23,929 nucleotides of DNA from a virus: IMG/VR virus record IMGVR_UViG_3300047562_000521, positions 1 to 23,929 of that record. One strand, 5' to 3'. How positions within the stretch are numbered: position 1 is the first letter of the stretch; every line of letters starts with the position of its first letter. Shown here in pieces: positions 432 through 18,037 of the stretch. Below the pieces are notes generated by a model. The model did no database searches and had not been told where the DNA came from. It saw only the letters and a program-made list of their open reading frames with translations. The translations under genes and the position numbers were made by a program.

Positions 432-439
432 TATTTATT
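432..439 (-). promoter_or_regulatory. T4-late-type promoter (AATAAATA) before the partial gene
   Basis: The minus strand reads AATAAATA, one mismatch from the T4 late promoter element TATAAATA and a form reported in marine T4-like phages. The octamer contains the TAA stop of the giant gene (437-435). Its end lies 4 nt from the ATG at 427 and 25 nt from the ATG at 406. A T4-type late transcript starts about 6 nt downstream of the element, which would fall at or inside the first ATG. The match is seen; promoter function is inferred. The same octamer also occurs before the first gene of the cluster (23888-23895). Confidence 0.5.
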
Positions 440-3400
440 CAGGTAAACGGGTACTCTTCGCAGCAATGAACTTAGTTATTGCACTTTCATTTTCAAGCAA
501 AGTAACGCCACTAGTAGCGGTTGCGGCGCCTCTATCGTACCAAGTTTGACCTAATTTCCTAATAATTCTAATTCTTGTTCCTGCAGGTAATGCACTTGTC
601 AATCTAATATATGGATCAGTACCATTAACTGCAAATTCTGCTGGAATTTCTCTATCAGCACCCGGACTATTTGCAGATAAAGTTTCGTCAAATACAGTTA
701 AAGATGTCTTTCTTAGACGTTTTCCGCCTGCAAATACTTCAACAGTATCACATCTTCTGTACTCGCTTGGTATAGATCCAGCATACCAAGTTCCTGTGGT
801 TGACTGAGGAGGCACAAAATCTAGTGGTCCTATTAGTAAACTACTACCGTCACTCACAAAATCTGTTCTTTCTTGACTGTCGTTATATGGTAATGCTTCC
901 GGAGCACCGACATCAATCACTAAACTTCCTGAAATATGTGTTTCAGCAATGGCTGTTCCAAAACTTCCACGTCTTAATTGTGTTAAAACGTTTCCGGTCT
1001 TGACCATATATTCAATTCTTTCATTATTAATTAGTACAATACCAGGAATGTTCCTAGATCGAATTGGTTCTGCTAATAACGACCCGTCAGTAACTGTAAT
1101 TGATGTGTCATAATACATTAAATTTTTAGCCAATTTAACATCAACATTTGCTGAGTATCTATTATAACGATATACGTTAAGCATATCTTTATTAATTTCA
1201 AATGCACTAGGCAATCTATAAAGCTCTTTACCAAAAGAAGTAATTGTTATTTCATCTGCATCTGAAGATTCAACATTTAATTTAACAACACCTCGAGGTA
1301 ATTGTACTTCATAATCAACATCTTGTTTTAGTCTCTGACCATTTTTATAAACCCATACATAACTTGTTGATAATGGCACAAACGGTAATTCATAAACAAC
1401 TTTGCCGCCTTTTACTCTATCACTTACTATAGATAATGATGGATACTCGCCAAACCAAGTTATATAAATTTTGTCTCCAGATGTTAAAGGCACTGTAGGA
1501 TTAATCACTACATTATCTCCAACAACCGCATATTGAGAACGAAGATCATTTTCGATCTTTATAACATCACCGACTGATATAGAACTTGCATTAATTGTAA
1601 GTTCTTTTGTTGTACCATTGTAAACATAATCTTGAATAAATGTTTGCAGGTTACCGTTTAGATAAACTCGAATATTATTTGTTAGAATAGCACCTGATGC
1701 TTCTGCAGGATCTAAACCTAATGTAAAGTTTAAGTTAGTTCCGTCATACACATCATAAATTGTATCAACTCCGATTAATTTCACATCATTAACTTCAACA
1801 ATTATTGATGACATTGCACTTTCTCTAGTTAACTGAACAAAGTTATCTAAATCAATATTTCTTGTGCTACCATCATATTCAACTTCTTGTCTGTTAATTC
1901 TAACAATTGGAACATCAGTACTATCAACATCAGTAGAAGCAGCAAACGTAAGTATTTTTATAACATCGTTTCTTGCAGGTGTTGTTCCAAATTGCACAAG
2001 TGTTCTATCTGGGGTATCAACTACTCCTGTACTATTGATAAATCCTACATCCTCTCTAACACCATTAAGTGTTACATAAATTGAGGATGTATTAGTAAAC
2101 GAAGCGTTAGTTAAAAATAAATTAGTATCACCGTCAGCAATAAATTCCTGGTAGTCTAAAATTTGTACGCCGCCGATACCAACTGAAAGAATTTCAATAA
2201 ATTGTCCTAGAGGAGGAGCAGAATTAAATTCAATTGAATTGTCGTTGACATTGACAACATAATTTATTGGTTCTACTTTTTGTCCGTCAACATATATAAT
2301 CACAGAATTGTTTTCAACAATGTTTTGTCCAACACCGTAAAGCAATGTAGTTCCATCTGAATACAATACTTTAGATTGAATTGGTGCTGCGCCTGTGCCT
2401 GTTGTTTGATATACTTTAATACTTAAACTATCAAGAACTTGTCCTGGAATATTTTCTTCTGTTGCGGGAACCTGATCAGGAGATACAAATTTGCCGCCTT
2501 CAATAACAATTTCTTCAGCAGTTATTCCTGTCGCTGTAGCATATGCTCCATCAATTTGAGATAAACTTCCGCCGGTAATTGCAGTGTCAACTAGATTAGG
2601 ATCTGTAATTGTAACTGATCCGTCACTTTCTACAGGACGGAATATTAGTATATCACCGGTATTTGTTGAAATATATCTTCCAATCTCAATGGTGTTAGTA
2701 GATCCATCGCCTACGAATGTTGGCATTTGTGCGTGTGGATTAGTTTGGTTAGAACTATCCCAAGCATCTGTATAATTTGGATCATCAATTCTAATAGTTC
2801 TAGGAAGAGGTCGGCCTTCACTGTATTGTAACTGATCAATAGTTGGTAATTCCTCTGTACCTTCTCTTCGTAAGTAAATTGTAATAATTTGTCCGTCGGT
2901 AGGAACATATGGTAATGCAACTACTTGTGTACTACCGTCGCACACAACATAGTAATCTGCTGCTGCTTCGACACTATCCCAACTGTCAGTAAACCAAGGA
3001 AGTGCGTCCCAACCACCTGTAACATCAAATGTTGTGCCTTGTACTTGGACTCCGCCAAAGTCAATACCAGTCATTAACTGATCTAAATCAGTGCCTTTCA
3101 TTCCTGATGATGGTGCATAATATTTTCTAATTCTATTAACACTATCTAAAATTTCATCATTCTTCTCGTATGTTATCTTAATAACATCTCCGGCATCTGG
3201 CGCTTGAACAAATGTAATTTTACCTTTTAACTGTTCAAATCCGTCTGTTGATCGTTTGTACAGACTAACTGAATATTCGTTGTTTAATACCAATTGTCCG
3301 TTTCGAATAATTTGTATTTTAGATTTGTCAACGGTTGAAGGATAATTTAATTCAAATACAGCAGATGTACCTGTTGCTGTAAATGTTTGTTCATAACTAT

Positions 3401-6400
3401 AAAGGGCATACAATCCTTCTTTAGTAATTCTATCAAATTTCATTTTAAGATTAAATGATCTTGATTTAGAACTTCCTAAAATTGGAACTGCTTTGGCTTT
3501 ATTGGTATTACTACCATTACCGCCTACAAGTGTAACTGTTGGAGTTTTTGTATACCCAGAACCTGGATCAGTTACTAGAACTCCACTGACCTTACCGTTA
3601 GAAATATATGCTTTTGCTTTTGCTCCAGTACCGTCTCCAATAATAGCGACTACAGGCGGTGAAGTGTATCCCGAGCCTGTTGCTGAAACAACTATATCAG
3701 TTATACTGTATCCTTTGTTATCTAACCAATATTTGTAAGGATATGATTGGATTAGTTCATTGTTTTCAGACACAGTTGTAATTCTTCCTTCAATCTCAGA
3801 ATATGCTGGTGGTAGATCAAAGTCTGTTACTGATGTATCTGAAACATCGACTTTGTTATACTTACTAACGTATTCTCTAACTGTTGTCCTATAAGGTTTA
3901 ACTTCGTTAATATAATCTAAGAAATATGTTAATCCATCACTCTTATAATTAACACGTTGTCTTAATTCTCCAACATCGTGAGTTGCATTTAAGAAACTTG
4001 TTTTAAACGCCCAATCAACATATGTTTGTTCTGTAAACACATATCTAATACACGTAAAGAACAGTTTGTTCCATTCAACTGCGTAATCTCCTACAAAGAT
4101 ATCTTCTTTAACTGCTTTTAAAATATTTCTTAATTCATTAGCAACTTCTTTATCATATAGTCCAGCGTCAAAACTATCAACAATGTCATAACCAATACCA
4201 CTAGTGTTTGTGTCATATAAAAGATCACTAAATTGTATTGTACCATTTTTTCTACCTACGAGTTCATAGTTTTCTAATAGAGTGTTTCCTGAATCATCAA
4301 TTTTCTTGAACACTGCCCATCCACCTGAACCATATTCTTTGATTTGAATTATGTCTCCAACCTGAACAGAAATTGCAGGTTCTTGGTAAACACTATTAAT
4401 CTCTTTAACAATTCTATCTGAAGAACTGTATCCTTCTTTCCACCAATCTACTTTGCTCCAGTATCTAGTGGTATTAAATGCTTGAGAACGACTGCGATAG
4501 AAACTCTTACGCTGATCGTCCCAAGCGTAAATGCTCCAATTATTGTTCGCTGTTGAATCTGTTTCTACTAAAACTGAAAACTCTCTAATCTTAGCAATAA
4601 CATAACTATATTTTCTTCCTGAATTAACAATATTAATTCTTGACACACGACCTTGTGTGTCTAATACTGCAACTGCTTCTGCTCCAATTCCGTCACCTTC
4701 AAACTCAATCGGAGGAGGAATTTTATAACCAAAACCTGGATTGATTACATCTATAGAATTAATCTCTCCGTCAATAATATTTGCTCGAATTTCTGCTTTT
4801 CTAACTCTAATAGTACCAACAGTTTCTAAATCAATATAATTTGTAACAGCAGTATCATATAATTTTAAAATTTCAGAAGGTTGTTCGTCAATTTGATTTA
4901 ATGTTGTGTAATCAATTATATCTGCAAATGCCTGTTTGCGAAGTACAGTATTAATATTGTTAATAACAATCTTTAATATGTTTCTCTTATTGACAAACAT
5001 ACTTTGTCTTGGTCTATAATTAATTCCATATTTTTGTTTAGTTGGTAGATTTGTATCAGGAATTCTATTACCCTGAACGTCATAACCAATTAAACTATCA
5101 ATCCATTTGTTCTCTAACTGTGAAGGAGGTAAACTATCTGAAACACCTTCAGTGATTAATTTATATTCATTATGAATTGCATTTTTCGATTTCTTATCAT
5201 TAAAGTATTCTGCATTTAAAATTGCATAATCAGAATTTACTAATGATTTGTAATTATAGAACAATGTTTTATTGCTATCAATAAATGCAGCATAAACTGT
5301 TCCTACAGAACCCGGATCTGAAATTAAAGAAGAAACACTACTTGCACTTAACGATCTACCAACTACTCCGTCAGGAGCAATTAATTTATTTCTTACCCAG
5401 AAATAATATAAAGTTTCAGTAGGCAATCCTGTGTTTGTGTTTAGTAATACTTTTTCTGAATAAACATTGTCTTCAGGATATAGAGGTTGACCGGATATTC
5501 CTGCTTGTAATCCTTCGTTAGTATCTGCTACAGCAGCCCACTCACTTGGACGGAATTTACTTTCGACCCATTCATAAATGTCAATAGTAGAACCCTCTGC
5601 TAGTTTACCCCAGTTTGCAGTTCGATATGCAATGTCTCCCTGCTCGTAATCAATCCATTTGGCTGTAGAAATATTCCACCATAATTTTCCAACATTCTTT
5701 GTAGTCCAAGCAATACTAGGATCAACAATAGTTGTACCGTCATCAAGTCCTTCAGTATACACAGCAGGATCATACGGAACCTTAAATGAAAGTTCACGTT
5801 CTGCTGAAGCAAGAATTTTCATTTTTGCAGGATCAATAATTTCAACATCTTGTAACTTAGTGTCTGTATCAACATCGTATAATGCTAAACGTTTTAGTTG
5901 TTCAATATCTACTGTTGCTGGTTGTGATCCTAATACAGTTAACGGTTTTTCAGTTGATGACTTCTTAAACATTCTTGCCATACCAACTTTTGGACCTTCA
6001 AATGCTAGTTCAATTCCGTGATCTGCTGGAGCAATATAGTCTGGCGAACCAACAACAATTACATCTGAAGTACAAGAAATACTATGACCAAAAGATTCAT
6101 TCAACGAAAGATTTGCTTCTAATTTTTCTGCAAGGAAATACTGTGTTGACTTTCTTTCAAACACGTATACTGATCCAGCAAATCCTGAATAACTCTTGAA
6201 CGTTGTTTTTCCATCATCAAATCCTGTTTCACCGCTGTCAAATACCGCAGGTAAAACAAACGGACTGTTATTTGCACCAACAGCAATTAATTCTGAATTA
6301 GGACTAATGCATACATCTTGTCCAAAGTACTCATTCGGGAATCTATCGTAACTTTGTAATTTTTGTTTTATTCTATAATGTTTGTATGTACTATCAGTAT

Positions 6401-9400
6401 CATATTCAAATACATAAGCAGTTCCTTGATTCTGGAAGTTAATGTCTGCCTTAGGACTTGAAACAACTAATACACTACCACTATAATCTAGAGCCAGTGC
6501 GTGACCAAAACGATCTCCTGTTGCAATATCCTGCGTTCCAATATCACTGTAATCAGTTAAACTGTCTGCTGTTACAGTTTGAATAAGTTCATAATAGCCA
6601 GCATTGGCTCTTCGGTATATGTAAACTTTTCCTGAAATATCAGCAGTACTATCTCCGTGGTCTACCCAAGGATATCCCGAAGAAGGAACTTGATTATAAC
6701 TTCTTATAGTACTTCCATCAGCAACAGGATCTGCTCCGATGTTTGCTAATATATGATATCTATCTTCCCACTTGACTACATCACCTTGAATGTATTCATA
6801 ATCTGGTTTCCAAATGCCTTTGTAATTAGGAAAATACTGTCCATCTGCTTCTGGTGCACCTACGGCTAATACTGAACCGTCATAGTTCATAGACAACGTT
6901 GTACCAAATTCAAATCCTTCCATTACAATTTCAGCAACTTGATCTGGTGTTAGTAATCCTGCATATAGAGATGAACCGTCATCATCTAGTGCAATACTTT
7001 GAGGTAACGAAGCACTTGTTGAAACTCTATCAAGTTGGATCCAGGCTTCGGAATCTATACTAATTGTACTTCCATCACCATAAGTATCTGTTACTGCTTT
7101 CCATAATTTTCCATCATAGAAAACTATCGAATTAACTGGATAGAATTTACTAGGATCATTGTCGTAAGGCCCTTTATAATTTTCATTCTCATCTAACTGC
7201 CAACCGTCACTAACAGTATAGGTGTAAAGATATACTCGGCCTTTTCCAAATAAACTGCCTGGCGCAGATACTGCCATATGATATTGATCACCATTTTTAG
7301 CAATTTGTATTTTATGACCAAATCTTTCATCATATGCCGGACGAGGGCTAATAAAATTGTATCTCAAATTCCACTGATTCGCTGCCCATTCATACAAGGT
7401 GATCATACCTTGATATGTAAACCCACTATCTGTACCAGAAGAACTAGCACTTATATTTCTAACATATTCCCAATCATCCGAATAAACGTTAATTGTACTT
7501 CCGTCTCCTACAACAGCAACTTTTGCCTTCCATAATTTTCCATCGTGTAGTACAATATCATTAGGGGCATATGTTGCAGTTGGATCGAAACTTCCTTGAT
7601 AGTAACTAGTAACTCCACTAGCGATCGGCGAACCTACTGCTAACCATTTACTGTCGGGACTTATTGCAATTTCATCTCCAAATGTTCCAACTGTTGCATC
7701 AACAAAATCACTATTAGGTTCGAGAATTTGTCTTAATCCAAGTCCTGCTGATGTTTCAACATATGATATAACGTATCCATTATCAGGCAACCCAACAAGT
7801 GTTTGTTTTAAAATATCACTATAAACAACTTTTTGTCCGGCTCTACTTGGATCCTGTAATCCGTAAGTTGTAATTTCTTTAGCAGAATAAGATTTATTTT
7901 TTTCTACAACTTCCCATTTATCTGTTCCGTTGTTGTCAATCCATAACTTTGATCCGTTTTGTAAAAGAGCTAGATGCTCAGGTGTAATTGATTCGTAGTC
8001 ACTGAATCTTGCCTCAGCAAATACAAATGGATATGAAAGTTGTGATTCGACAAATTCAACATTAGTCGGTCTTTCAGTCACTGTAACCACAAGACTAAAT
8101 GAGTCAGCACTTGTAATTTTCCATACACCATCAATCTTTGTATCAATACCTTTTAAACCGATATAATCATCTACTTCAAGATTATGACGTTTTGTAAATC
8201 CGATAGTAACAGACAAGTTATCAACTGTGACTGTGCTGATTGGTAAATCGTAAGCAATGTTTGTTCTTAGTACTGTCCAAGAAGGACCATTAAATGTTAC
8301 CCAGATATGATCATTATCAATCAATGATGTAACCGCAATACTAGTGAGTTGCTCTTTTGTTTTTATAATATAATCTGTTTGGCCTAATTTAACATAACCA
8401 GCAGTTTTAAAAGGTGCTGATTCATAATTTGTAGGATGAATGTTATTAGTATAAGGCACTGGAGCATAAACAAAGTCTGATTTATTAACTCTGTAATATC
8501 TATCAATAAATGTACCTTTTTCTTCTGTAATAATAACTGGCTGAGGATTAATTGTAAACTTATCGGTTTGAAGTTTTAATTCGATATTTTTAGATTGTGC
8601 TGTTCCTCCAAGTGTACCTACTTTGAACGCCCACTCTTCATCTAATTCTACACTTGCTGAACCAGATCCACTTAGTTTATTAAACAGTTTTGTAACTGCA
8701 TTGTTACTACCTTTCTCTCTGATAAATCCTTGGTATAACTGAAATTGTGTAACAGGATCTTCGGCTAATGATTCAAGATAATCACGCTTCTGATAACCAA
8801 CAGTGTGTCTTGCAAGATCTCGTTGGCTCTGTCCTAATCCTTCAGATGCTACATCAAAATAATCTTCAATTTGATTAATTCTATAATCGTAGTTTGCAAT
8901 TAATTGTTTTTCAGGTGTACTGTCAAGAATTGTCCAATCTTCATCGTCGAAAAGTTCTCCACTTGTATGATTATATCTGCTTGTATAATTTCCTGACCTA
9001 TAAGCAATAATATCACCTAGTTTATAGTTTGTGAATGGAGACCAAGTTGCTATTTGAACATTATCAAATAAGAAGCCCGGAGATGTGTAATCTCCATCCC
9101 AGTCTACTGTACGGAATCCTTGAACTTTAATTCTTTCTTGTCTATATCCTGTCGACTTATCAAAGATAATATCATTAAACACCGTTCTGTCATCAAACAA
9201 TGCTACGTGTTCTTTTAGAACATAATTTAATTTTAAATAATATATTCCTTTAGTAGTGTCGACTGTGGTAATGACAAATTTTTGAAAATCTCTCGATACG
9301 TCAATATTCTTAGGATCAATTGGTTGTCCATCACCAGTTAATACATTATAATCATAGAAACTGTTTAGAATATTATCTGCAACACCAACAGGAATTTCAA

Positions 9401-12400
9401 TTTGTAATTTTTCTGCGCCTGGACTTAAAGTAATTAATGATCCAACTGCCCAGTTATGTCTTGTCCAGAACATAAATTCTTTACAACTTGTGGTCCAGTC
9501 TTGAACTACTTGATTTCGATTATCATAATTGTTAAAAACAAACCCATTGGCTTTTAAAAATTCTTGATAGCCTAATAAGAAATCAACAACTCCCTGAATA
9601 CTATTAAATTCATCACCGTAACTTAAACGTCTGATAACAGTAGTGTTAAAATTGCGTCTGCGCTGTGCTACCGCTGCTCCTTCTAGCGGAAGTTCTGCTA
9701 GTTTTTGCCAATTGTTTTTATCAAACTCGTTTGTTCCGGTATGAGTTTTATTTGCTCTCCAATAATCATTTCTATATTCAACAATTGATCCATTATTGTA
9801 TGTTTTATTTTCTTCCCACACAACGAAAGATGCACTAACACCCCCTACAGAAATTGTTGGATCTTTCTGATTAGGGATTGGTGGATAATAATTAAAGTAA
9901 GGATTAATATCATCATATCCATTAACTACAAACCCTGTTGTTGTTTTTTCTAAAATAACACCACTATAAGTTAACGAAGAAATTGGAGAACTAACATTAA
10001 AGATAATATTATAATTCTCTGGAGGAATGAATGTGCTAGAACTAGTAGAATTTGGATTTTTACTATCTAACAAATATTTTTGTTGATCTTTATCAACAAA
10101 ACCACTTAAACGATTTGATAGTCTAACATTAAGATTAGACAACATATCCTGTGCTTCACTAACCGGTTTGCCTTTAGATTTAGCATATGCAGCAACATAA
10201 AAACTTAAACCGCTTTTTAATTTTTGACCTGCAATCGGAAGTTCAAGATCAGAAATAGTTAAAAATGTTTTAGTTTCATTATCGACAATTTGATCTAAAA
10301 TATTTGAAACAGTTTTAGATCTATCAAAGTTTGCAATAACGAATTCAAAGGGTTTTACTAAACACAGTGCCATTACAAATGCAAACGGATATTCAGAACT
10401 GCTTCTCCAAGCATACTCAACAGGTCCTATGTCGCCTAATCTAAAACTTCCTTTGTTATTAATTAATGTAAAGTTCTGTGCCAAGCCACTTGTTAACGGA
10501 TCAATAAGTTCTCCGTCCGCATTAACTGGAATGTGACTCATAATACTCGATCTAGCATAACGAGGATAAGTTCCTGCTCTCTCGCCGTGCCTAATTATAC
10601 CATCTCTAATATCTTCCCAGAGAATCAAGTTGCCACTAGTATAAGGTGCCGGACCGTATTCGCTTTCCCACCAATCTGGCTGTTCACTAAATCCTAAACA
10701 TTCCCAAGGACAACGATGTGGTCTATCTGTATCATAAAAATATTTGTACACACCTCTCCAATATCCAAGTAAATTCTCAGAGTTTGTTGGATCAGTCATA
10801 TTAGAATATGTGTAGGTGAAAGGATTTTCACTATCAAAAAATGAGTTGACAGTATAACCCAAGTTAGTATTTGCTACCCATTTTAAAAATTCCTGAGATA
10901 TAATATCTGTTAGGTCTTTTTGATTGTAATTTGCATTTTCGTAATAACCACCAACAATATCATCAATATCGGAAACTTGTGGATTATATTCTTGTTTGAT
11001 ATTGTTGTAAATTCTATATTCTAGTTCTAATAAAAGGTCATCACGGAAATCGCCATAAGCAATAGTAATACTTCCGTCGTGTCCTTGAATTACTTCCTGT
11101 GGTTCAGTATACGTGTCATCAACAAATTTCATAGGTGTATACTTTTTGTATAGACCCATTGAAGTAGGAGTAGGCGGAATATGTGAGAATGCTGTTGATA
11201 CATATTCTCTAATCTGTATTTGATCGTTTTCAACAAGATCAATTTTTAATATTATAAAACCAAATGTTGAATTGAATTCGTAATCTCTTCCGTGTAGTAA
11301 TTGCAGATTATTTTTGTAAACATATACTGCACGTCTGCTTAATGTATCAAGTCCAAACGGTTGTGAAAGACTGAAAGTTTTAATACCAGTGTCTTCAACA
11401 ACATAATCAATAGATGTATATGCGCCTGCGCCGATCATATCAGAATCAGCAAAAGGACTATCAATAGTTTTTGTTCTTGTTAGTTCTGTAATAATATCGT
11501 CAACAAAATCTGCATTGATATTCTGAAAATCTATTTCAGCGGCTTTCTTAATAAAGTTATCTTTAAAAACAGAATATGATTTTTTAGAAAATTGTAAAGA
11601 CTTAACAAGATTAATTTCTTTATCATTTAATAAAGCAATTGAAGCAGCAGCAATACCGCTATGCTTTAAAAATCTTTTAGCGTGTACTTGATAATCTGAA
11701 ATGTCTCTTAGATTGCTAACACCCGGTAGTGAACCACTAAAATCAGAATTAAATTCTAAAGCGGTTGAAACGTGATCAATTGCTTGACCTAACGTAAACT
11801 CTTTAACAGGTTCATTCAAAGGATTTTTTTCTAATCCAACTGGAATTTCATAATAGCCATTATCGGGTTCGACATCATCTACTACTTTGATAACAACTAC
11901 GTCTTTTTCATTAAATGTCTTATCAAATACAAAAACTGATCCTTGTAAAGTATAAGTTAAATCTGTTTTTACTCCATTAACATAAAAAACTATTTTTAAA
12001 TTACTAGTTGTCTTAGACCAATCAATAGTTTTAAAATCAATTAAATTTGTAGTTTCTGTTACAACTACGGAATCAATAATAGGTTGCAAGAAATCGTAAG
12101 AAGTTTTTATCCACCCGTTGTCATAGGAATCATTTATTTTAATAAATCCTTTGCTAACATTAACATTAATTGTATCCTGCTGAAGTGTGTATTGAAATGA
12201 ATCTGAATCTAGATGCCAATTAAAAAGTATATCTCCAACATTATCGATATTGAGATAAGATAACTGAAATCCTAGTTCAGCATCTACTCTACCTGATCCT
12301 TCTTTATAACTTAATATTTTTGTTCCTAAGAAAGTTGTTACTGGATATGTTTCTTCATCGGAAAAACTTACGCCATTAGAATCAAATACATCAAACAACG

Positions 12401-14186
12401 GAGATTGGTTAATAGCAGTTTTTTCCTGACTTTTAACCCAATTAGTTCCGTTAAAATGATACATCTTACCAGCATTGAGTTTTCCTCGTCTAACTAAAAC
12501 ACACTCATTAATTACTGAATTAGAATCACTTGTTTCTTTAAGATTAATTTGTCTACGACCGTTATGAGTAATAAAGTTTACTTCATAAATTCTATTATTG
12601 GCTAATCCGTCGGTATCTGCTGTAACAAGCACTCTTGCTCCTTGAAACAAGAATTCGCCGTCAATATTATAACCTAAACTTCCTTCAACATTAGAAAACA
12701 CATCAGTAGTAAAATTATCAATATAGTCAACTGTAGTCTTTGCTGTTGTACCGTGATTGTATAATTTTATATTAGGATGAAATTCAATAATAGGACGCTT
12801 TGCTCTTGATGCTTCAGCAGCATCAAAGTCACTTCCTCTTCTTCTATAAGCATATTCTAATACGCTTCTATGAAACCATCTATTGTAACGACTCCAGGGA
12901 TTTGAATCTTTACTATTTCTACTAATAGTAATATAATCTTTATATCCGGGATATTGGCTAGCATCATCAAAAGGTTGTGTGTCAAAACCTTCGTTATCAA
13001 AAAGTATTTCAGGTGTATCTGATGTTAATGCTGGCGGAACAAGATCACTAAACTTAATTAAAGTAATTTCTTTACCAACACCTTCAACTAACCAAGTTCC
13101 TTCGGCATACTTGGGACTTTCAACTTGGCCTAGAAACTCAACTACTAGACCGTTGGTAAATTCAACTCCATTAGCACTAGTATATGTTTTCTTTCCAAGA
13201 ATTTCTTTTTCGATATCTATAAATGTGTTAGAATCAATGTCAGCAATAATAAAGCGTCCTAGCCTATTAGGATCTTTGTCGCTTTGATAGAATAACATAT
13301 CTGGAGCATCAAGAGGCACTTCAAATGTTAGTGTTCCTCTTTTCACACCATTATTAGTAATACCATTATTGTATACTAAAGAATCAATATCTGCATTTTC
13401 ATCGATCAATTCCCAATCCTGACTATCAGTATCAATACTACTTCCGTCTGGAGAAATATCAGTTAACGCTTTCCATAATTTTCCATTGAAGACAACTAGT
13501 TCACCTGGACGATATGCTTTGTCAGGATTATAAATTAAAGATCCTGTATCATAATGTGTTCTAATAGTAAATGCTTCTGTTGCATTAACTTCGAACTTGT
13601 ATGTTTGTCCTCTGTATAAAGTTAACGCAGGATTATTTGTTGCACCGTCTGGTGTAAAAATCCAACTAGAGCCAATTGAAGTTCTAACTTTGTATGTGCT
13701 TGTTACAGAAGACGCTTGTCCTTGGACCGGTATGCTAGGTGGTCCTGAAGGAACCCAAAAATATTCTCTGTAGTTTGTAAACTTATCCCAACTAATTGGA
13801 GGATTCCAAGAATAATGTTCTTGTTTGTTTAACTTATCATCTCTCTCAATATTGTTTCCAAAGAATTTTAAAATGTTTTTTAAATCAAGATAATCATAAA
13901 ACTTTTTAATTTCTTGATCTTGCTCAACTGTAACACCTGGTTCTAACTGATATCTACTTCTTAGTGTCGCATCTGAGTCAAGATAAATGTCTTTTCCGTT
14001 ATAGGTTTTACCGTAACGTCTACCTATATATCCAACAAGTTTGTCAACAACACCTGGTTGTACTAATGGATCAACAACACCTGAAAGAAATTTTTGATTT
14101 GTATCAGTTCTAAAGACATTGGGTAGAAAGTCGCTAGACTTTCTAATAGGAACTTGACTTTTTGGAAAAACTTTTTTATCGGCCAT
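435..14186 (-). CDS. Giant modular virion protein, 4583 aa, probable outer baseplate/host-contact protein
   Basis: One unbroken frame encodes a protein of roughly 500 kDa. Visible regions, in order: a conserved N-terminus (residues 1-150) with QVPIRKSSDFLPNVFRTDTN, PLVQPGVV and YREYFWVPSGPP; a beta domain (~170-310) interrupted by a carbohydrate-binding-like module (219-263); a Trp-rich block (~1155-1210, CPWECLGFSEQPDWW); two further modules (1457-1499 and 1713-1756); an FG-GAP-type beta-propeller (~2166-2745) holding three modules; a W/G-rich block near 2810-2900; G-x-G-Y repeats (~3148-3196 and 3500-3563); a conserved stretch with VKPYRTTVREYV near 3430; and DGST-type beta repeats to the C-terminus. 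The N-terminus and mosaic layout match the very large structural proteins encoded after gp6 in marine T4-like phages. The start overlaps the gp6 stop (TAATG) with no strong ribosome binding site, so translational coupling is likely. No catalytic motif was recognised. The role in the outer baseplate or fibres is inferred from position. Confidence 0.85.
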   Translation of the reverse strand: MADKKVFPKSQVPIRKSSDFLPNVFRTDTNQKFLSGVVDPLVQPGVVDKLVGYIGRRYGKTYNGKDIYLDSDATLRSRYQLEPGVTVEQDQEIKKFYDYLDLKNILKFFGNNIERDDKLNKQEHYSWNPPISWDKFTNYREYFWVPSGPPSIPVQGQASSVTSTYKVRTSIGSSWIFTPDGATNNPALTLYRGQTYKFEVNATEAFTIRTHYDTGSLIYNPDKAYRPGELVVFNGKLWKALTDISPDGSSIDTDSQDWELIDENADIDSLVYNNGITNNGVKRGTLTFEVPLDAPDMLFYQSDKDPNRLGRFIIADIDSNTFIDIEKEILGKKTYTSANGVEFTNGLVVEFLGQVESPKYAEGTWLVEGVGKEITLIKFSDLVPPALTSDTPEILFDNEGFDTQPFDDASQYPGYKDYITISRNSKDSNPWSRYNRWFHRSVLEYAYRRRGSDFDAAEASRAKRPIIEFHPNIKLYNHGTTAKTTVDYIDNFTTDVFSNVEGSLGYNIDGEFLFQGARVLVTADTDGLANNRIYEVNFITHNGRRQINLKETSDSNSVINECVLVRRGKLNAGKMYHFNGTNWVKSQEKTAINQSPLFDVFDSNGVSFSDEETYPVTTFLGTKILSYKEGSGRVDAELGFQLSYLNIDNVGDILFNWHLDSDSFQYTLQQDTINVNVSKGFIKINDSYDNGWIKTSYDFLQPIIDSVVVTETTNLIDFKTIDWSKTTSNLKIVFYVNGVKTDLTYTLQGSVFVFDKTFNEKDVVVIKVVDDVEPDNGYYEIPVGLEKNPLNEPVKEFTLGQAIDHVSTALEFNSDFSGSLPGVSNLRDISDYQVHAKRFLKHSGIAAASIALLNDKEINLVKSLQFSKKSYSVFKDNFIKKAAEIDFQNINADFVDDIITELTRTKTIDSPFADSDMIGAGAYTSIDYVVEDTGIKTFSLSQPFGLDTLSRRAVYVYKNNLQLLHGRDYEFNSTFGFIILKIDLVENDQIQIREYVSTAFSHIPPTPTSMGLYKKYTPMKFVDDTYTEPQEVIQGHDGSITIAYGDFRDDLLLELEYRIYNNIKQEYNPQVSDIDDIVGGYYENANYNQKDLTDIISQEFLKWVANTNLGYTVNSFFDSENPFTYTYSNMTDPTNSENLLGYWRGVYKYFYDTDRPHRCPWECLGFSEQPDWWESEYGPAPYTSGNLILWEDIRDGIIRHGERAGTYPRYARSSIMSHIPVNADGELIDPLTSGLAQNFTLINNKGSFRLGDIGPVEYAWRSSSEYPFAFVMALCLVKPFEFVIANFDRSKTVSNILDQIVDNETKTFLTISDLELPIAGQKLKSGLSFYVAAYAKSKGKPVSEAQDMLSNLNVRLSNRLSGFVDKDQQKYLLDSKNPNSTSSSTFIPPENYNIIFNVSSPISSLTYSGVILEKTTTGFVVNGYDDINPYFNYYPPIPNQKDPTISVGGVSASFVVWEENKTYNNGSIVEYRNDYWRANKTHTGTNEFDKNNWQKLAELPLEGAAVAQRRRNFNTTVIRRLSYGDEFNSIQGVVDFLLGYQEFLKANGFVFNNYDNRNQVVQDWTTSCKEFMFWTRHNWAVGSLITLSPGAEKLQIEIPVGVADNILNSFYDYNVLTGDGQPIDPKNIDVSRDFQKFVITTVDTTKGIYYLKLNYVLKEHVALFDDRTVFNDIIFDKSTGYRQERIKVQGFRTVDWDGDYTSPGFLFDNVQIATWSPFTNYKLGDIIAYRSGNYTSRYNHTSGELFDDEDWTILDSTPEKQLIANYDYRINQIEDYFDVASEGLGQSQRDLARHTVGYQKRDYLESLAEDPVTQFQLYQGFIREKGSNNAVTKLFNKLSGSGSASVELDEEWAFKVGTLGGTAQSKNIELKLQTDKFTINPQPVIITEEKGTFIDRYYRVNKSDFVYAPVPYTNNIHPTNYESAPFKTAGYVKLGQTDYIIKTKEQLTSIAVTSLIDNDHIWVTFNGPSWTVLRTNIAYDLPISTVTVDNLSVTIGFTKRHNLEVDDYIGLKGIDTKIDGVWKITSADSFSLVVTVTERPTNVEFVESQLSYPFVFAEARFSDYESITPEHLALLQNGSKLWIDNNGTDKWEVVEKNKSYSAKEITTYGLQDPSRAGQKVVYSDILKQTLVGLPDNGYVISYVETSAGLGLRQILEPNSDFVDATVGTFGDEIAISPDSKWLAVGSPIASGVTSYYQGSFDPTATYAPNDIVLHDGKLWKAKVAVVGDGSTINVYSDDWEYVRNISASSSGTDSGFTYQGMITLYEWAANQWNLRYNFISPRPAYDERFGHKIQIAKNGDQYHMAVSAPGSLFGKGRVYLYTYTVSDGWQLDENENYKGPYDNDPSKFYPVNSIVFYDGKLWKAVTDTYGDGSTISIDSEAWIQLDRVSTSASLPQSIALDDDGSSLYAGLLTPDQVAEIVMEGFEFGTTLSMNYDGSVLAVGAPEADGQYFPNYKGIWKPDYEYIQGDVVKWEDRYHILANIGADPVADGSTIRSYNQVPSSGYPWVDHGDSTADISGKVYIYRRANAGYYELIQTVTADSLTDYSDIGTQDIATGDRFGHALALDYSGSVLVVSSPKADINFQNQGTAYVFEYDTDSTYKHYRIKQKLQSYDRFPNEYFGQDVCISPNSELIAVGANNSPFVLPAVFDSGETGFDDGKTTFKSYSGFAGSVYVFERKSTQYFLAEKLEANLSLNESFGHSISCTSDVIVVGSPDYIAPADHGIELAFEGPKVGMARMFKKSSTEKPLTVLGSQPATVDIEQLKRLALYDVDTDTKLQDVEIIDPAKMKILASAERELSFKVPYDPAVYTEGLDDGTTIVDPSIAWTTKNVGKLWWNISTAKWIDYEQGDIAYRTANWGKLAEGSTIDIYEWVESKFRPSEWAAVADTNEGLQAGISGQPLYPEDNVYSEKVLLNTNTGLPTETLYYFWVRNKLIAPDGVVGRSLSASSVSSLISDPGSVGTVYAAFIDSNKTLFYNYKSLVNSDYAILNAEYFNDKKSKNAIHNEYKLITEGVSDSLPPSQLENKWIDSLIGYDVQGNRIPDTNLPTKQKYGINYRPRQSMFVNKRNILKIVINNINTVLRKQAFADIIDYTTLNQIDEQPSEILKLYDTAVTNYIDLETVGTIRVRKAEIRANIIDGEINSIDVINPGFGYKIPPPIEFEGDGIGAEAVAVLDTQGRVSRINIVNSGRKYSYVIAKIREFSVLVETDSTANNNWSIYAWDDQRKSFYRSRSQAFNTTRYWSKVDWWKEGYSSSDRIVKEINSVYQEPAISVQVGDIIQIKEYGSGGWAVFKKIDDSGNTLLENYELVGRKNGTIQFSDLLYDTNTSGIGYDIVDSFDAGLYDKEVANELRNILKAVKEDIFVGDYAVEWNKLFFTCIRYVFTEQTYVDWAFKTSFLNATHDVGELRQRVNYKSDGLTYFLDYINEVKPYRTTVREYVSKYNKVDVSDTSVTDFDLPPAYSEIEGRITTVSENNELIQSYPYKYWLDNKGYSITDIVVSATGSGYTSPPVVAIIGDGTGAKAKAYISNGKVSGVLVTDPGSGYTKTPTVTLVGGNGSNTNKAKAVPILGSSKSRSFNLKMKFDRITKEGLYALYSYEQTFTATGTSAVFELNYPSTVDKSKIQIIRNGQLVLNNEYSVSLYKRSTDGFEQLKGKITFVQAPDAGDVIKITYEKNDEILDSVNRIRKYYAPSSGMKGTDLDQLMTGIDFGGVQVQGTTFDVTGGWDALPWFTDSWDSVEAAADYYVVCDGSTQVVALPYVPTDGQIITIYLRREGTEELPTIDQLQYSEGRPLPRTIRIDDPNYTDAWDSSNQTNPHAQMPTFVGDGSTNTIEIGRYISTNTGDILIFRPVESDGSVTITDPNLVDTAITGGSLSQIDGAYATATGITAEEIVIEGGKFVSPDQVPATEENIPGQVLDSLSIKVYQTTGTGAAPIQSKVLYSDGTTLLYGVGQNIVENNSVIIYVDGQKVEPINYVVNVNDNSIEFNSAPPLGQFIEILSVGIGGVQILDYQEFIADGDTNLFLTNASFTNTSSIYVTLNGVREDVGFINSTGVVDTPDRTLVQFGTTPARNDVIKILTFAASTDVDSTDVPIVRINRQEVEYDGSTRNIDLDNFVQLTRESAMSSIIVEVNDVKLIGVDTIYDVYDGTNLNFTLGLDPAEASGAILTNNIRVYLNGNLQTFIQDYVYNGTTKELTINASSISVGDVIKIENDLRSQYAVVGDNVVINPTVPLTSGDKIYITWFGEYPSLSIVSDRVKGGKVVYELPFVPLSTSYVWVYKNGQRLKQDVDYEVQLPRGVVKLNVESSDADEITITSFGKELYRLPSAFEINKDMLNVYRYNRYSANVDVKLAKNLMYYDTSITVTDGSLLAEPIRSRNIPGIVLINNERIEYMVKTGNVLTQLRRGSFGTAIAETHISGSLVIDVGAPEALPYNDSQERTDFVSDGSSLLIGPLDFVPPQSTTGTWYAGSIPSEYRRCDTVEVFAGGKRLRKTSLTVFDETLSANSPGADREIPAEFAVNGTDPYIRLTSALPAGTRIRIIRKLGQTWYDRGAATATSGVTLLENESAITKFIAAKSTRLPE
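450..3400 (-). repeat. C-terminal string of DGST-type beta-sandwich repeats in the giant protein
   Basis: The last ~1000 residues are a degenerate tandem array. Units tend to open with D-G-[ST]-[ST] followed by hydrophobic alternation, pass through a V-x-[VL]-N-G-x-x-[LQ] strand pair and end in a G-D-x-I-x-I strand. Openings are visible near residues 3600 (ATGTSAVFEL), 3748 (CDGSTQ), 3825 (GDGSTNT), 3941 (SDGTTLL), 4016 (ADGDTNL), 4103 (YDGSTRN), 4146 (YDGTNLNF), 4256 and 4443 (SDGSSLL). Closing strands include GDVIKITYE, NDVIKILTF and GDVIKIEND. Similar F-x-G-D-G-S-T units are common in tail fibre and tail tip proteins. Near 4350-4420 the pattern is broken by a segment with NNERIEYMVKTGN and LRRGSFGT, a motif seen in other phage tail proteins. 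Copies are diverged, so the array is old. The span given is approximate. Confidence 0.65.
3498..3690 (-). repeat. G-S-G-Y-T repeat pair in the giant protein
   Basis: Residues ~3500-3563 contain two units starting GSGYTSPPVV and GSGYTKTPTV, separated by GDGTGAKAKAYI and a G-K-V-S-G-V-L-V strand. The pattern is G-x-G-Y-x-x-P-P-x-[VI], then GDGxGAxAxA, then xGxVxxIxVxxxG. It recurs, more diverged, at residues ~3148-3196 (4600-4745). Such units occur in many phage and marine surface proteins and are probably small beta domains. No activity can be assigned. Confidence 0.6.
4600..4745 (-). repeat. Second, diverged G-x-G-Y repeat unit in the giant protein
   Basis: Residues ~3148-3196 read NPGFGYKIPPPIEF, then GDGIGAEAVAVL, then a G-R-V-S-R-I-N-I-V strand and NSGRKYSYV. 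This matches, position by position, the unit at 3498-3690, about 350 residues further on. The second half has lost the canonical G-Y-T (RKYSY in its place). It is probably the same small beta fold duplicated within the protein. Confidence 0.55.
6650..6825 (-). repeat. Carbohydrate-binding-like W/Y module 6, inserted in the propeller (residues 2455-2512)
   Basis: The module begins YKGIWKPDYEYIQGDVVKWE (W2459) with DRYHILANIG, then DGSTIRSYNQVPSSGYPW (W2507). It is longer than modules 4 and 5, with extra residues between the two halves. It sits between AVGAPEADG and GKVYIYRR, again splitting a single propeller blade at the same topological position as module 4. Confidence 0.5.
7025..7180 (-). 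repeat. Carbohydrate-binding-like W/Y module 5, inserted in the propeller (residues 2336-2388)
   Basis: The module begins YKGPYDNDPSKFYPVNSIVF and continues with YDGKLWKAVTDTYGDGSTIS to SEAWIQL. W2362 and W2382 are 20 residues apart. It follows the closing strand GRVYLYTY of the second propeller blade. It is closest to module 4 in protein sequence and identical to module 1 over 19 bases at the GKLWKA core. Confidence 0.55.
7096..7114 (+). repeat. 19-base direct repeat GCTTTCCATAATTTTCCAT, copy in module 5
   Basis: Identical to 13468-13486 (module 1) and 18 of 19 bases to 7525-7543 (module 4, GCCTTCCATAATTTTCCAT). On the coding strand it encodes GKLWKA. Identity at synonymous positions across copies 6.4 kb apart suggests fairly recent duplication, gene conversion or recombination between modules, since most other repeats in this gene have diverged. 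Confidence 0.7.
7458..7595 (-). repeat. Carbohydrate-binding-like W/Y module 4, inserted in the propeller (residues 2198-2243)
   Basis: The module begins FDPTATYAPNDIVLHDGKLW (W2219) and ends in GDGSTINVYSDDWEYV (W2239). It lies between the AVGSP turn of the first propeller blade and the closing strand QGMITLYEW of the same blade, so it splits the blade. It shares GKLWKA, DGSTI and the 20-residue W-W spacing with module 5, and 18 of 19 core bases with modules 1 and 5. Confidence 0.55.
7525..7543 (+). repeat. 19-base repeat, copy in module 4 (one mismatch)
   Basis: GCCTTCCATAATTTTCCAT differs by one base (AAG for AAA in the Lys codon) from the copies at 7096-7114 and 13468-13486. It lies 429 bases from the module 5 copy, in the same orientation and reading frame. 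Confidence 0.7.
8920..9050 (-). repeat. Carbohydrate-binding-like W/Y module 3 (residues 1713-1756)
   Basis: The module begins WSPFTNYKLGDIIAYRSGNY (W1715) and ends DDEDWTILD (W1751). This is the most typical Y-x-x-G-D-x-[IV]-x-Y-x-[GS]-x-x-Y pattern of the six. It follows a beta segment with VDWDGDYTSPGFLFDNVQ, so it may also be an insertion. Sugar binding is inferred. Confidence 0.5.
9690..9818 (-). repeat. Carbohydrate-binding-like W/Y module 2 (residues 1457-1499)
   Basis: The module begins WEENKTYNNGSIVEYRNDYW and ends NNWQKLAELP. It has the same W-x-x-x-x-x-Y-x-x-G-x-x-V-x-Y-x-x-x-Y-W layout as CBM5/12-type domains, with HTGTNEFDKNNW in the closing half. It is more diverged from modules 1, 4 and 5 and lacks the DGST segment. 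Sugar binding is inferred. Confidence 0.5.
13400..13532 (-). repeat. Carbohydrate-binding-like W/Y module 1 (residues 219-263)
   Basis: The module begins YNPDKAYRPGELVVFNGKLW and ends SQDWELIDE. The layout Y-x-x-G-x-x-V-x-x-x-G-[KNR]-x-[WY] followed by a terminal W resembles small chitin/cellulose-binding domains (CBM5/12-like). W238 and W258 are exactly 20 residues apart, as in modules 4 and 5. It interrupts a beta domain that starts with LTLYRGQTYKFEVN and resumes at residue ~270 with RGTLTFEVPLDAPDMLFY. Carbohydrate binding is inferred from the pattern only. Confidence 0.55.
13468..13486 (+). repeat. 19-base repeat, copy in module 1
   Basis: GCTTTCCATAATTTTCCAT is identical to the copy at 7096-7114, 6372 bases away, in the same frame of the same gene. 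It encodes the GKLWKA core of the first carbohydrate-binding-like module. Confidence 0.7.
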
Positions 14187-17100
14187 TATGTGTTACTCAC
14201 TACTGAATTTGCACCAGCTCTAATTTCAGCAGCGGTAATGGATGTAACAATTTCGATATCGTCAACTGTAGCACCACTTACAAAAATTTCATCTGGCTTA
14301 CTTTGAATTTCAAATAAACTTCCAAATACTTGATTACTTTGTTTTGGTAGGATCACAAAGTTAGTAACATCTGGAGAAACTGAATTTACAACATATGTTG
14401 ATAATTCACTTAGATAAAATCTATCACCGAAGTCCCAGTTATTAACACTAAAGAATTGGTTAACGGCATTTATTATTCGCACCTTTAAGTTATTGTCATT
14501 GATTGACTTACCTGGATTTTTAACTACTTTAAATTGTGCTTGTAATTTTTCAGGAGCAGATGCGCCAAATAATACTTTGTATTGAACAGGATGATAAATT
14601 ATTTCATCGCTGATTGCTTTAATTTCGTTTAGTCCACCACCAAAATCAATTCTTAAAGAATCTGAATCAGGTCTTTGTGGCTCTGTAGTTGTAAACCCTG
14701 CAAGATAATTTCTAAAATCAGTATCATATGATCTAGTTAAAATAAACAAATCAATAATATTAGTAACACTAGGATCAATTCTTCTATCTTCGCTGGCGGC
14801 GTGAGTATATTGGAATTTGATATTCCTTCTGCCGATCACTGCCTTATAAGAACTTTCAAGGTCAAGTGTGTTAGTTGTTTTGTTTACGCTCTTTACGATA
14901 TCCTCGTTAGCATCATAAAAGTACAACAACTGTCCGTCATCATAATTATTAAGCACTGCTTGTGATTCTCGTGGTAAAATTAATATAGTGTCGTTAGAAT
15001 TATCAATTAAATTGTACACCGAAGTGCCGTACTCGTCTTTAACTTCTTCAAAGAAAAGATAGTTTAAATCAAGGTCTGGTCCAACGATTGTTTCAAATGC
15101 TTCTGGATTATCGATAACTCCATCATCGTCTGTGCTTTCGTAACCGTCGTCGTATTTGATAGTGTCAGACACTTCAAAATCATAATCAGATATTAAAGAT
15201 TCAATACCATCACTACCTGTATTAATTCCTAAAATTCTAATTGTATCTTTTGCAAGTTTTCCAGTTACATTATTGTATGCTTTTTCGTTTTTATCAAAGT
15301 AAAAACGATTTTGATCAATACTACCAAACACATAGTCTAACTTTCTAATTCTTACAACGTAACGATCGTTGTCTTTTACAAATGCAACAATCCAGGATGC
15401 ATCTAAATTCACACTTGTTGTATCGCCTGCTTTACCTAAACTAAATGCAGAAGTCAAATCAATGTTTTGACTTTGAATAATTTTCCAACTAGCAGATACT
15501 GGGTCATATCTTAAACCAAAGTTTAAACTTGAAAATGCTTGATTAACAATTTCTGTTTCAATTGAACTAGCAATGTCAGTTACAAATTTAGGCACAATAC
15601 GTCTTGCAATAGCACCTGACGGAATATTATCATTAAATGTAACTGGACCTAATCCGCTAGTTAAAGGACCTCTTCCTGCGTTAGTACCATCACCAACTAC
15701 ATTAACTACCTTAGTCCACAAATATGATCTTTGTGCAGGATCTGTTGTATCTTCGTCAACAAGTTTTCCTTTTTTAAATGCCTTTCCGCTAGGAGCAACA
15801 AATTTAATATTTGCACCTGGCTGTAGATATTTTAAGTTATTTGTTGCATAGTTTGAAACTTTTAACAATGAACTGTCAACTGAATTTTTAAAATAACCTG
15901 TTCCTATGTTAACGTCATTGGTAACTGCTTCCCATACTGTAGTTGTTTCTGTAAACAACACTTTTTCAAACTTGGTTAGATAAAAATTATAAACGTCTGT
16001 ATCATCAAAAACTTTTTCAACATAACGCTTAACAAAATTAATAATGTCTGTTCTATTTGTAAATTTAAATGTTAAATTACGTTCGCCTTCTTCTTTAAAA
16101 ATATAACCGTCAGTAGCAAATACATTTACAGCACTATACTTTCCGCTGGCATCAATGATATCTAAATTCCTACTAATACCGCTAGATGTTCTGTTTACTG
16201 CTTTTACTTTTAAAATATTCTGTGAAGTTGATAGTGGAGCAAGATTATAATCTTCTCCCGTAATCATTCTATTCTGTGTATAATATTGTGCAGGAGCATT
16301 CTGTCTGATAGTATCAATATCTTCAGCGGCAGCCGCACTTGAAACTGTATATTGCAAACCTAAGGTAATACTTAATGTATGACGCTGTCCTACTTTGTTA
16401 ACGTACGGAACACTAATACTGATACCTCTCATTTCATTAGGTGTAATACTATATTGTAATCCGTTACTAACTCTGTAATATGTTCTAAAACTTCCTTGTG
16501 GTAAATTTCCATAAACACCATCAGCAAACACTAGATCAATTCTATCGTTCTCTCTAGTTTCAACAGCATAGATATCTCTTAAATCTCCAACAACACTGTT
16601 GTATGCAATATTGTTTCCTGACAATGTTGAGACTTTTGCCCATTCAGACTGTTGAACACCATCTGCCGACATTGCGAATAACCACACATCATTATTGTTA
16701 ATGTTTTGACTTTCAACTTCAACACGCTCATTTGTAGTTGGAACATCAATTGTAAAATCTGCAAGTTCTAAACTTCCTTGCTTGAACATTAAAAAGAACC
16801 CGGTGTTATTACTTGCAGGTCCTTGACCGTCTTGACGGTAAACAAATCCTAGTTGATTACCTGGTGTAGGTGCTTCTTCATAAATTTCTTCAGCATCTTT
16901 AAACGCAGTAGATAATAATTCAAAAGCCATATTTCTTCCAGCAACTGATTTAGTGAAACTAAAGATAGGAACATCATCTGAAATTGATTTAAATCTGTAT
17001 TGTTCGGTAGGAACACTTTGAACAATTGCTGATCCTTGACTTCTACCAAATTCTGTATTATCGCTCATAGCAGCATTTAACACAAGAATAAATTGTTCTG

Positions 17101-17557
17101 CCCAGTTAGTATTCGTTGGATCATTCCAACGAATGTTTTGAGAAGATAAATTTCTACCGTTACTATCAATTAAATCTTCAGTCGTTGTAACTGATGTAAA
17201 TTTTAATAATCCTTTTGCTGCTATATTACGTTTTGCATTGTATGAAAGCATACGTGCAATACGTAAAACACTTTCTTTACGTTCTGCAAGTTCGATAAAA
17301 TTTTCACGTGATGCTAGATCAATACGGAAACTTAGACTTTGTCCTAAAAATGCTACTGCATCAATTAGAGCTAGATACTCCGAACTTTCAATATAGTCGT
17401 TGAAATCTTCAGGATAGTTTTCTCTTAGATACGTAATGATTACACGGCGAATGTTCTCAAAGTCGTAAGATTTAAAATCAGCATTACGAAACGTCTGATA
17501 GATTCTTTTCCAGTCTTCATTAAGTATTAAGTTGTTCTGTCTTGAAGTTGTGCTCAT
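14186..17557 (-). CDS. 6: Baseplate wedge protein gp6, 1123 aa (enlarged)
   Basis: gp6 forms the continuous ring at the inner baseplate of T4-like phages by linking neighbouring wedges. The N-terminal third is typical: NEDWKRIYQTFRNADFKSYD, YLRENYPEDFNDYIESSEY, ALIDAVAFLGQSLSFRIDLA, SRENFIELAERKESVLRIAR and MLSYNAKRN (residues ~15-110). The C-terminal ~130 residues (from ~995: FGASAPEKLQAQFKVV, then IINAVNQFFSVNNWDFGDRF and LSELSTYVVNSV) have the baseplate-J/gp6 dimerisation-type fold. T4 gp6 is 660 aa, so this protein carries about 460 extra residues, mostly between ~550 and ~990, including a segment with YLQPGANIKFVAPSGKAF and FGLRYDP. AGGAAT upstream of the ATG supports the start. The stop overlaps the next start by one base (TAATG). 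A weak late-type element lies 18 nt upstream. Confidence 0.9.
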   Translation of the reverse strand: MSTTSRQNNLILNEDWKRIYQTFRNADFKSYDFENIRRVIITYLRENYPEDFNDYIESSEYLALIDAVAFLGQSLSFRIDLASRENFIELAERKESVLRIARMLSYNAKRNIAAKGLLKFTSVTTTEDLIDSNGRNLSSQNIRWNDPTNTNWAEQFILVLNAAMSDNTEFGRSQGSAIVQSVPTEQYRFKSISDDVPIFSFTKSVAGRNMAFELLSTAFKDAEEIYEEAPTPGNQLGFVYRQDGQGPASNNTGFFLMFKQGSLELADFTIDVPTTNERVEVESQNINNNDVWLFAMSADGVQQSEWAKVSTLSGNNIAYNSVVGDLRDIYAVETRENDRIDLVFADGVYGNLPQGSFRTYYRVSNGLQYSITPNEMRGISISVPYVNKVGQRHTLSITLGLQYTVSSAAAAEDIDTIRQNAPAQYYTQNRMITGEDYNLAPLSTSQNILKVKAVNRTSSGISRNLDIIDASGKYSAVNVFATDGYIFKEEGERNLTFKFTNRTDIINFVKRYVEKVFDDTDVYNFYLTKFEKVLFTETTTVWEAVTNDVNIGTGYFKNSVDSSLLKVSNYATNNLKYLQPGANIKFVAPSGKAFKKGKLVDEDTTDPAQRSYLWTKVVNVVGDGTNAGRGPLTSGLGPVTFNDNIPSGAIARRIVPKFVTDIASSIETEIVNQAFSSLNFGLRYDPVSASWKIIQSQNIDLTSAFSLGKAGDTTSVNLDASWIVAFVKDNDRYVVRIRKLDYVFGSIDQNRFYFDKNEKAYNNVTGKLAKDTIRILGINTGSDGIESLISDYDFEVSDTIKYDDGYESTDDDGVIDNPEAFETIVGPDLDLNYLFFEEVKDEYGTSVYNLIDNSNDTILILPRESQAVLNNYDDGQLLYFYDANEDIVKSVNKTTNTLDLESSYKAVIGRRNIKFQYTHAASEDRRIDPSVTNIIDLFILTRSYDTDFRNYLAGFTTTEPQRPDSDSLRIDFGGGLNEIKAISDEIIYHPVQYKVLFGASAPEKLQAQFKVVKNPGKSINDNNLKVRIINAVNQFFSVNNWDFGDRFYLSELSTYVVNSVSPDVTNFVILPKQSNQVFGSLFEIQSKPDEIFVSGATVDDIEIVTSITAAEIRAGANSVVSNT

Positions 17558-17599: not shown

Positions 17600-18037
17600 T
17601 TAGTTAATTCTCTGGCTGTTTTTATCAAAGTCAAAACGCATCCTTTCATTTACATTAAACGGTATGTACGTTATATCTGCTTCAATTCTTATCCCCATTT
17701 CAGTAGTGTCTACTGATACTTGATTTACTACAATTCTTGGATCATAGTTAATAACATCTTGAACATCTTTAGCGATGATTTCTTTCGCTTCTTCTGTGAA
17801 CGGTTCAAAGATCATATCCCAGATAACCGTTCCAAAATTAGGATTCATTAGTTTTTCACCCTTACGAATATAAAAGTGATTAATAATATCCTGTTTTACA
17901 AGATCAAGATCGTATAATTTGTATCCATTCTTATTTTCTTTAGAACTAAATCCTTTATATTTGAAAGAGTCTGCAACATCGTCACCAACTGATGTCTTGT
18001 TAACTGCTACTCTAGTTTTATTATAAAGTTTTGCCAT
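17600..18037 (-). CDS. 25: Baseplate wedge protein gp25, 145 aa
   Basis: gp25 is the small, conserved wedge and sheath-initiator protein of contractile tails; it starts sheath polymerisation at the baseplate. The family pattern is clear in residues 30-135: LYDLDLVKQDIINHFYIRKG, then GEKLMNPNFGTVIWDMIFEP, then INYDPRIVVNQVSV at the position of the conserved E-P-R motif of the family. Here the motif reads D-P-R. The C-terminus gives the final beta strands (IEADITYIPFNVNERMRFDF). The length fits the family (T4 gp25 is 132 aa). GGAG lies eight bases upstream of the ATG. It sits 11 bases after gp5 and 42 bases before gp6, the usual order in marine T4-like phages. Confidence 0.93.
   Translation of the reverse strand: MAKLYNKTRVAVNKTSVGDDVADSFKYKGFSSKENKNGYKLYDLDLVKQDIINHFYIRKGEKLMNPNFGTVIWDMIFEPFTEEAKEIIAKDVQDVINYDPRIVVNQVSVDTTEMGIRIEADITYIPFNVNERMRFDFDKNSQRIN

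Follow-up and report, generated by a model that had tools for sequence, protein, structure and literature searches.

Gene content of the window

The window, that is, the whole stretch of DNA that was analysed, is a linear piece of viral DNA, 23,929 bases long. A baseplate cluster runs along its minus strand in the order gp53-like, virion protein, gp5-like hub, gp25-like, gp6-like and an ORF of 4583 amino acids. All window features given below lie on this strand. The gp53-like wedge protein (22447..22794; phrog_7145, 96 bits) probably has its true start inside the ORF. It is followed by the virion protein (19752-22442), the gp5-like baseplate hub protein (18049..19743; phrog_13211, 128 bits), the gp25-like baseplate wedge protein (17600..18037; Pfam GPW_gp25, 42.4 bits) and the gp6-like baseplate wedge protein (14186..17557; phrog_10646, 968 bits). 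We notice that an N-terminal segment of the virion protein, IERRIQSDGNTVNFNIDRNQPFIDTV, is repeated near its own C-terminus as IERRRQSNGVLVNFNIDRTKPFVDTV.

The 4583-residue product, a giant baseplate protein (435..14186), is encoded directly after the gp6-like gene and matches phrog_10938, virion structural protein, at 1102 bits, with 76 relatives aligned. Its gene position directly after gp6 is like that of the T4 gp7 or BW3 wedge protein. Aligned with T4 gp7 by hhalign, with a single-sequence target, it reaches a probability of at most 0.2%. We also considered the giant as a homologue of T4 gp6, gp7, gp8 or gp10 and set this aside, finding no convincing hhalign match to these targets, all of them single sequences. 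A phmmer search of the whole protein against the PDB gave no useful match, and a near-DNA search of cultured phages gave zero matches.

The giant also contains two copies of a G-x-G-Y-x-x-P-P-x-x type repeat, at residues about 3489-3600 (window about 3387-3722) and about 3165-3230. These repeats probably explain the matches to unrelated tail and connector families. On inspection, phrog_438 and phrog_460 were rejected as true orthologues, their matches being put down to the repeat near residues 3490-3570.

Six CBM5/12-like modules in one chain

The first-pass annotation had described six carbohydrate-binding-like modules in the giant, and all six stretches are found at those residues. Module 1 covers residues 219-263 (13398..13532), module 2 residues 1457-1499 (9690..9818), module 3 residues 1713-1756 (8919..9050), module 4 residues 2198-2243 (7458..7595), module 5 residues 2336-2388 (7023..7181) and module 6 residues 2455-2512 (6651..6824). 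The Y-x-x-G-x-x-V core given for them is exact in modules 1, 2 and 6, but looser in modules 3 (YKLGDII), 4 (YAPNDIV) and 5 (FYPVNSIV). Modules 1, 4 and 5 do have the stated 20-residue spacing between the two key Trp residues; it mirrors one subtype, with 31-34% mean identity between sites. This subtype, A, consists of modules 1, 4 and 5 and carries D-G-S-[ST]-I ... D-W, whereas subtype B, modules 2 and 3, carries T-H-T-S or a variant, followed by F-D ... W. Module 6 is divergent.

Searched with Pfam CBM_5_12, the whole giant scores 62.8 bits against the curated cut-off of 26.2. Singly, modules 1 to 5 score 19.4, 26.3, 21.9, 20.8 and 14.6 bits and module 6 obtains no score, so that module 2 is the only one to pass the cut-off by itself. 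In a leave-one-out comparison, a profile was made from relatives of five modules and the sixth was scored, alongside 177 shuffled or reversed decoys. Modules 1 to 6 reach 30.0, 30.3, 14.7, 35.9, 25.0 and 3.7 bits, and the best decoy 4.9. Because modules 1 to 5 score 14.7-35.9 bits against at most 4.9 for the decoys, chance similarity of their sequences is excluded. Module 6 falls within the decoy range. In a profile-profile comparison it matches module 4 with a probability of 96.7% and an E-value of 4e-10, where reversed decoys reach at most 0.7%; it is through this comparison only that module 6 is tied to the family. Three tblastn searches with queries of 44-49 amino acids found no donor proteins for the modules, and the alignments of the modules vary too much to define a pattern for scanning.

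Host folds of the modules

Module 1 had been said to split an N-terminal beta domain. The AlphaFold2 model of residues 150-330, with a pLDDT of only 73, agrees: it displays a cupredoxin-like fold (about residues 160-325, 13212..13709) interrupted by a discrete beta unit. The best structural match of this domain is rusticyanin, with a Z score of 10.5 and 95 residues aligned over a 156-residue span at an rmsd of 2.1 Å. Since the model matches cupredoxins, we take module 1 to split a cupredoxin-like domain. Judged by eye, the segment LFYQSDKDPNRLGRF of this domain contains no Cys, His or Met, and the ligands that hold copper in cupredoxins (His, Cys, His, Met) may have been lost from it.

Modules 4, 5 and 6 are located in a predicted integrin-type, seven-bladed FG-GAP propeller (residues 2098-2746, 5949..7895; FG-GAP_2, 53.8 bits). 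The AlphaFold2 model of residues 2090-2790 has a pLDDT of 82.8 and a pTM of 0.80, and superimposes on integrin alpha-L with a Z score of 32.5 (361 residues, rmsd 3.1 Å); Foldseek likewise matches it to integrin alpha-subunit propellers (E 2e-12). As had been proposed, modules 4 and 6 split single blades at the same place, which in the model is the loop between the second and third strands (the B-C loop). Module 5 does sit just after the last strand of a blade, the one between those of modules 4 and 6, but in the linker between two blades (the D-A linker) and not inside one. In beta-propellers, B-C loops and D-A linkers lie on the same face. Because the strand order and propeller topology place these segments together, modules 4, 5 and 6 probably project from one face of the modelled propeller. 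Modules 2 and 3 are located in the conserved wedge part of the giant.

In the models of modules 1, 4, 5 and 6, short strands form a small beta-sheet fold. The structure prediction called for in the first pass thus returns discrete beta units, not integral strands of the surrounding domains.

Filled and empty sites among relatives

Two scans of IMG/VR yielded 12 and 80 loci encoding relatives. Together with nine cultured jumbo phages, they give 77 distinct sequences, including that of the window. The modules vary in presence and absence among these homologues, and every site is empty in at least some of them; with the predicted units splitting the cupredoxin-like domain and the blades, this bears out the description of the modules as inserted small domains.

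Module 3 is cleanly missing from all nine cultured jumbo phages, whose conserved flanks meet directly. Atu_ph07, Phosso, Cassandra and SCTP-2 have module 2, which is absent from RaK2, PHA46, XaC1, BF, Vibrio 2.275.O and the relative L017. L017, a distant relative at 32% identity, keeps module 3, lacks modules 1, 2, 4, 5 and 6, and has an uninterrupted cupredoxin-like domain. Within the window's clade, every sufficiently complete member retains modules 1 to 4. Module 5 is absent from L053/L042, and modules 5 and 6 are both absent from L067, in which the blade strands are joined directly (VGAPQIFNEIPENKGKVFVY) and module 4 is retained.

A seventh site near residue 3750 is vacant in the window (CDGSTQVVALPYVP), where the alignment places it at GSTQ (residues 3751-3754, 2925..2936). 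L016, L083 and L078 carry a further module there, and L067 carries one near it. These extra modules score 12-15 bits, which is weak, yet above decoys. L083 shares about 85% identity with L075 and L061, both of which lack the seventh-site module.

Insertion also occurs within insertions. Module 5 of L020, L060, L029, L027, L028, L026, L018 and L013 contains a second small domain (G-R-T-Y-T-I ... G-T-T-x-F ... G-T-G-T-V), and a different domain occupies the same point in L022/L024. Related nested inserts are found in module 6 of L019 and in module 4 of L016. Searches against Pfam and PHROGs gave the nested domains no convincing name.

Two side observations concern other insertions in these viruses. 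In L090, L084 and L095, an extra domain of roughly 120 residues lies between the third strand of a blade and module 5, and it looks like a copy of the N-terminal cupredoxin-like domain with no interruption. Gp6-like wedge proteins with CBM5/12-type modules occur in Vibrio phage 2.275.O (L102, 4638-8507, plus strand; three modules) and Atu_ph07 (L099, 5306-8902, plus strand; one, weak).

Order of gain and turnover

A tree of the giant was built without the modules, and a separate tree was made of the modules themselves. In the protein tree, module 2 is placed deepest, then module 3, and modules 1, 4, 5 and 6 fall on the stem of the window's clade. The gains accordingly ran from module 2 to module 3 and then to modules 1, 4, 5 and 6 before this clade diversified, with occasional losses and additions later. 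In the module tree, whose support is low because the domains are so short, sites 1, 2, 3, 5 and 6 form one group each (site 5 unsupported) and site 4 is not separated from site 1. Since the modules group by site, the tree gives no sign of recent shuffling between sites.

The picture of a mobile domain colonising exposed loops holds in part. It fits when taken over the long term, and for the seventh site and a few recent changes, but not the site-wise grouping and the vertical descent within the window's clade. Most insertions are old and have been inherited vertically. Since the clade stem, modules have been lost only at sites 5 and 6, and a few new ones have been added around residue 3750. 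For this anatomy and history of the insertions, taken apart from any docking role, our confidence is high.

Core and ligand residues of the modules

In CBM5 domains, chitin is bound by an exposed aromatic pair (Tyr-Trp or Trp-Trp) after the second strand, together with a third aromatic, whereas the Tyr of Y-x-x-G and the last Trp are core residues (PMC8449059). At every site of the giant, at least 98% of the sequences have an aromatic in each of the two core positions. None of the six window modules has the chitin-contacting pair, nor does any aromatic occur commonly at that position in their families. Modules 2 and 3 have a conserved Phe near the place of ChiA1 Trp687, where the alignment is uncertain. 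With the contacting pair absent, we assign the modules to CBM5/12 by fold and sequence family only, and would not regard them as functional chitin binders. They may bind another glycan through another face.

A possible docking role

The module profiles also match chitinases and deacetylases. Among contractile-tail proteins of known structure and role, they give two modest matches: residues 29-66 of the phage Milano tail spike gp124 (E 3e-4) and residues 40-84 of cyanobacterial Cis13/All3316 (E 1.6e-3). The N-terminal tail-binding module of Milano gp124 spans residues 1-175, in which the stretch 100-RTDLPPGPFDPANWQ-115 contacts the wedge protein BW3 (PMC10811340). The N-terminal domain of Cis13/All3316 binds the baseplate (PMC8894136). 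In CBA120 TSP1, the ChiA1 chitin-binding fold is that of the head-binding subdomain D2; according to its authors, no head domain of this type has ever been reported to bind polysaccharide (PMC3966878). The multivalent sugar-binding surface that the first-pass annotation had suggested is still a conjecture: the conserved aromatics are the structural core pair, the contacting pair is missing throughout, and the matches in solved tails fall in docking regions. We also tried the XD2 and XD3 domains of T4 gp10 as counterparts of the modules and dropped them, since those are described as jelly rolls (PMC8825819).

The comparisons show the six CBM5/12-fold modules inserted in surface loops of a large protein associated with the wedge, in a contractile-tailed phage of the jumbo type. 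The modules may act as accessory docking surfaces that hold other baseplate or fibre proteins at the baseplate periphery. The chitin-binding fold would here serve again for contacts between proteins, as it does where several tail spikes have it in their head-binding parts, and gain or loss of a module would change which peripheral parts are carried. That similar modules occur in a gp6-like wedge protein in both Vibrio phage 2.275.O and Atu_ph07 is consistent with this role. Several observations count against it. The profile matches are of weak to moderate strength for both Milano gp124 and Cis13. The domain is fibre-side and trimeric in Milano, Cis13 and CBA120, whereas in the window it lies in a wedge-side protein. 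The losses in L067 show modules 5 and 6 to be dispensable, and phage CBM insertions of other folds, tested elsewhere, bind host surfaces. We hold the explanation as a whole, docking included, tentatively and slightly nearer to doubt than to belief. We lean slightly towards docking over glycan binding because the Milano gp124 and Cis13 matches fall in baseplate-attachment parts and the same-fold head domain of CBA120 comes without reported polysaccharide binding.

Alternatives to docking

The modules could instead be weak glycan-binding domains, in which the repeats within a chain, multiplied by the copies of the chain, provide a multivalent hold on the polysaccharide of host or capsule until irreversible binding follows. 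Membership of the CBM5/12 family, by Pfam and leave-one-out comparison, fits such a role. In lactococcal phages, tail-tube and neck proteins that carry CBMs bind the host (PMC6669499), and an evolved Dit improves infection of exopolysaccharide-bearing hosts (PMC10688798). The propeller face that modules 4, 5 and 6 probably share by strand order also points this way, as does the somewhat lower conservation of the modules (mean identity 0.47-0.62) relative to most close flanks (0.51-0.79). The ligand positions argue otherwise: none of the six modules has the exposed aromatic pair of CBM5, their families have no common aromatic there, and the only aromatic near ChiA1 Trp687 is the uncertainly aligned Phe of modules 2 and 3. 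Same-fold domains in tail spikes, moreover, serve docking. We consider glycan binding possible, if on balance doubtful.

The modules might also be passengers or spacers that the protein tolerates: small, stable folds whose termini lie close together, which any exposed loop can accept, spread by illegitimate recombination and contributing little except bulk or stiffness. Further small domains have been inserted likewise, even within the modules, and sites 5 and 6 have been cleanly lost. Unlike neutral passengers, however, modules 1 to 4 are kept across the sufficiently complete members of the clade, with core residues nearly invariant over wide divergence, which makes this account unlikely. The view that the modules belong to the surrounding domains as integral strands, CBM-like in appearance only, found nothing in its favour and is hardly credible, because module-free relatives keep the surrounding domain, the models contain separate beta units with host folds that match known cupredoxins and propellers across the gap, and clean empty sites refute it for modules 1, 3 and 6.

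Returning to docking, a stronger version would make the giant an insertion platform, with the chitin-binding fold converted into a docking socket. Single sites would gain or lose such sockets, and every socket would hold its own kind of peripheral fibre or spike. We regard this as rather unlikely. If it were true, module turnover would alter the adhesion kit of the phage.

Comparison with known systems and significance

With CBM5 and CBM12 domains (Pfam CBM_5_12; ChiA1, 1ED7), the window modules have in common the profile match, the core Tyr and Trp and the short strands. They differ in lacking the ligand aromatic pair and in lying in loops of a virion protein instead of being attached to an enzyme. 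In lactococcal and Lactobacillus phages, evolved Dit likewise has a CBM-type module inside a conserved baseplate protein, with insert-free relatives. Its modules, however, are BppA-like, whereas the window has six modules in one chain and several host folds. Tail-spike head-binding domains (CBA120 TSP1 D2 and the Milano gp124 N-terminal module) share the chitin-binding-domain fold or a matching sequence in a contractile-tail protein; theirs belong to a trimeric receptor-binding protein, the window's to a giant wedge-associated protein.

The integrin alpha subunit, with its alpha-I domain, also has an extra domain between the blades of an FG-GAP propeller. The window's inserts are three CBM-like modules and no alpha-I domain, and a common fold is not proof of common function; FG-GAP propellers are common in viral proteins. 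The phrog_10938 giants of jumbo phages (relatives of PA5oct, Atu_ph07 and RaK2) share the protein family and gene order, but the nine cultured relatives lack modules 1, 3, 4, 5 and 6, and their sequences do not align with the propeller. One phrog_10938 member is already annotated as chitin-binding type-3, and earlier CBM_5_12-type annotations exist in relatives, in Pseudomonas phage PAC2 and in a Vibrio phage gp6-like protein.

CBM insertions in phage baseplates are already known from evolved Dit, and some improve adsorption. By its sequence comparisons, the giant is a CBM-decorated baseplate protein, with CBM-type modules in a conserved baseplate protein of which insert-free relatives are found. 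As far as could be found, the apparently new elements are six modules in one protein, their placement in an integrin-type propeller and a cupredoxin-like domain, the run of filled and empty sites among relatives, and the nested inserts. A CBM_5_12 annotation in a phage tail protein should not be read as sugar binding unless the ligand residues are checked. The relatives supply a natural filled and empty series in one virion protein, in which lineages about 85% identical differ by a single module and modules 5 and 6 have been naturally lost. This series makes the role of inserted CBM-type modules in a contractile baseplate testable.
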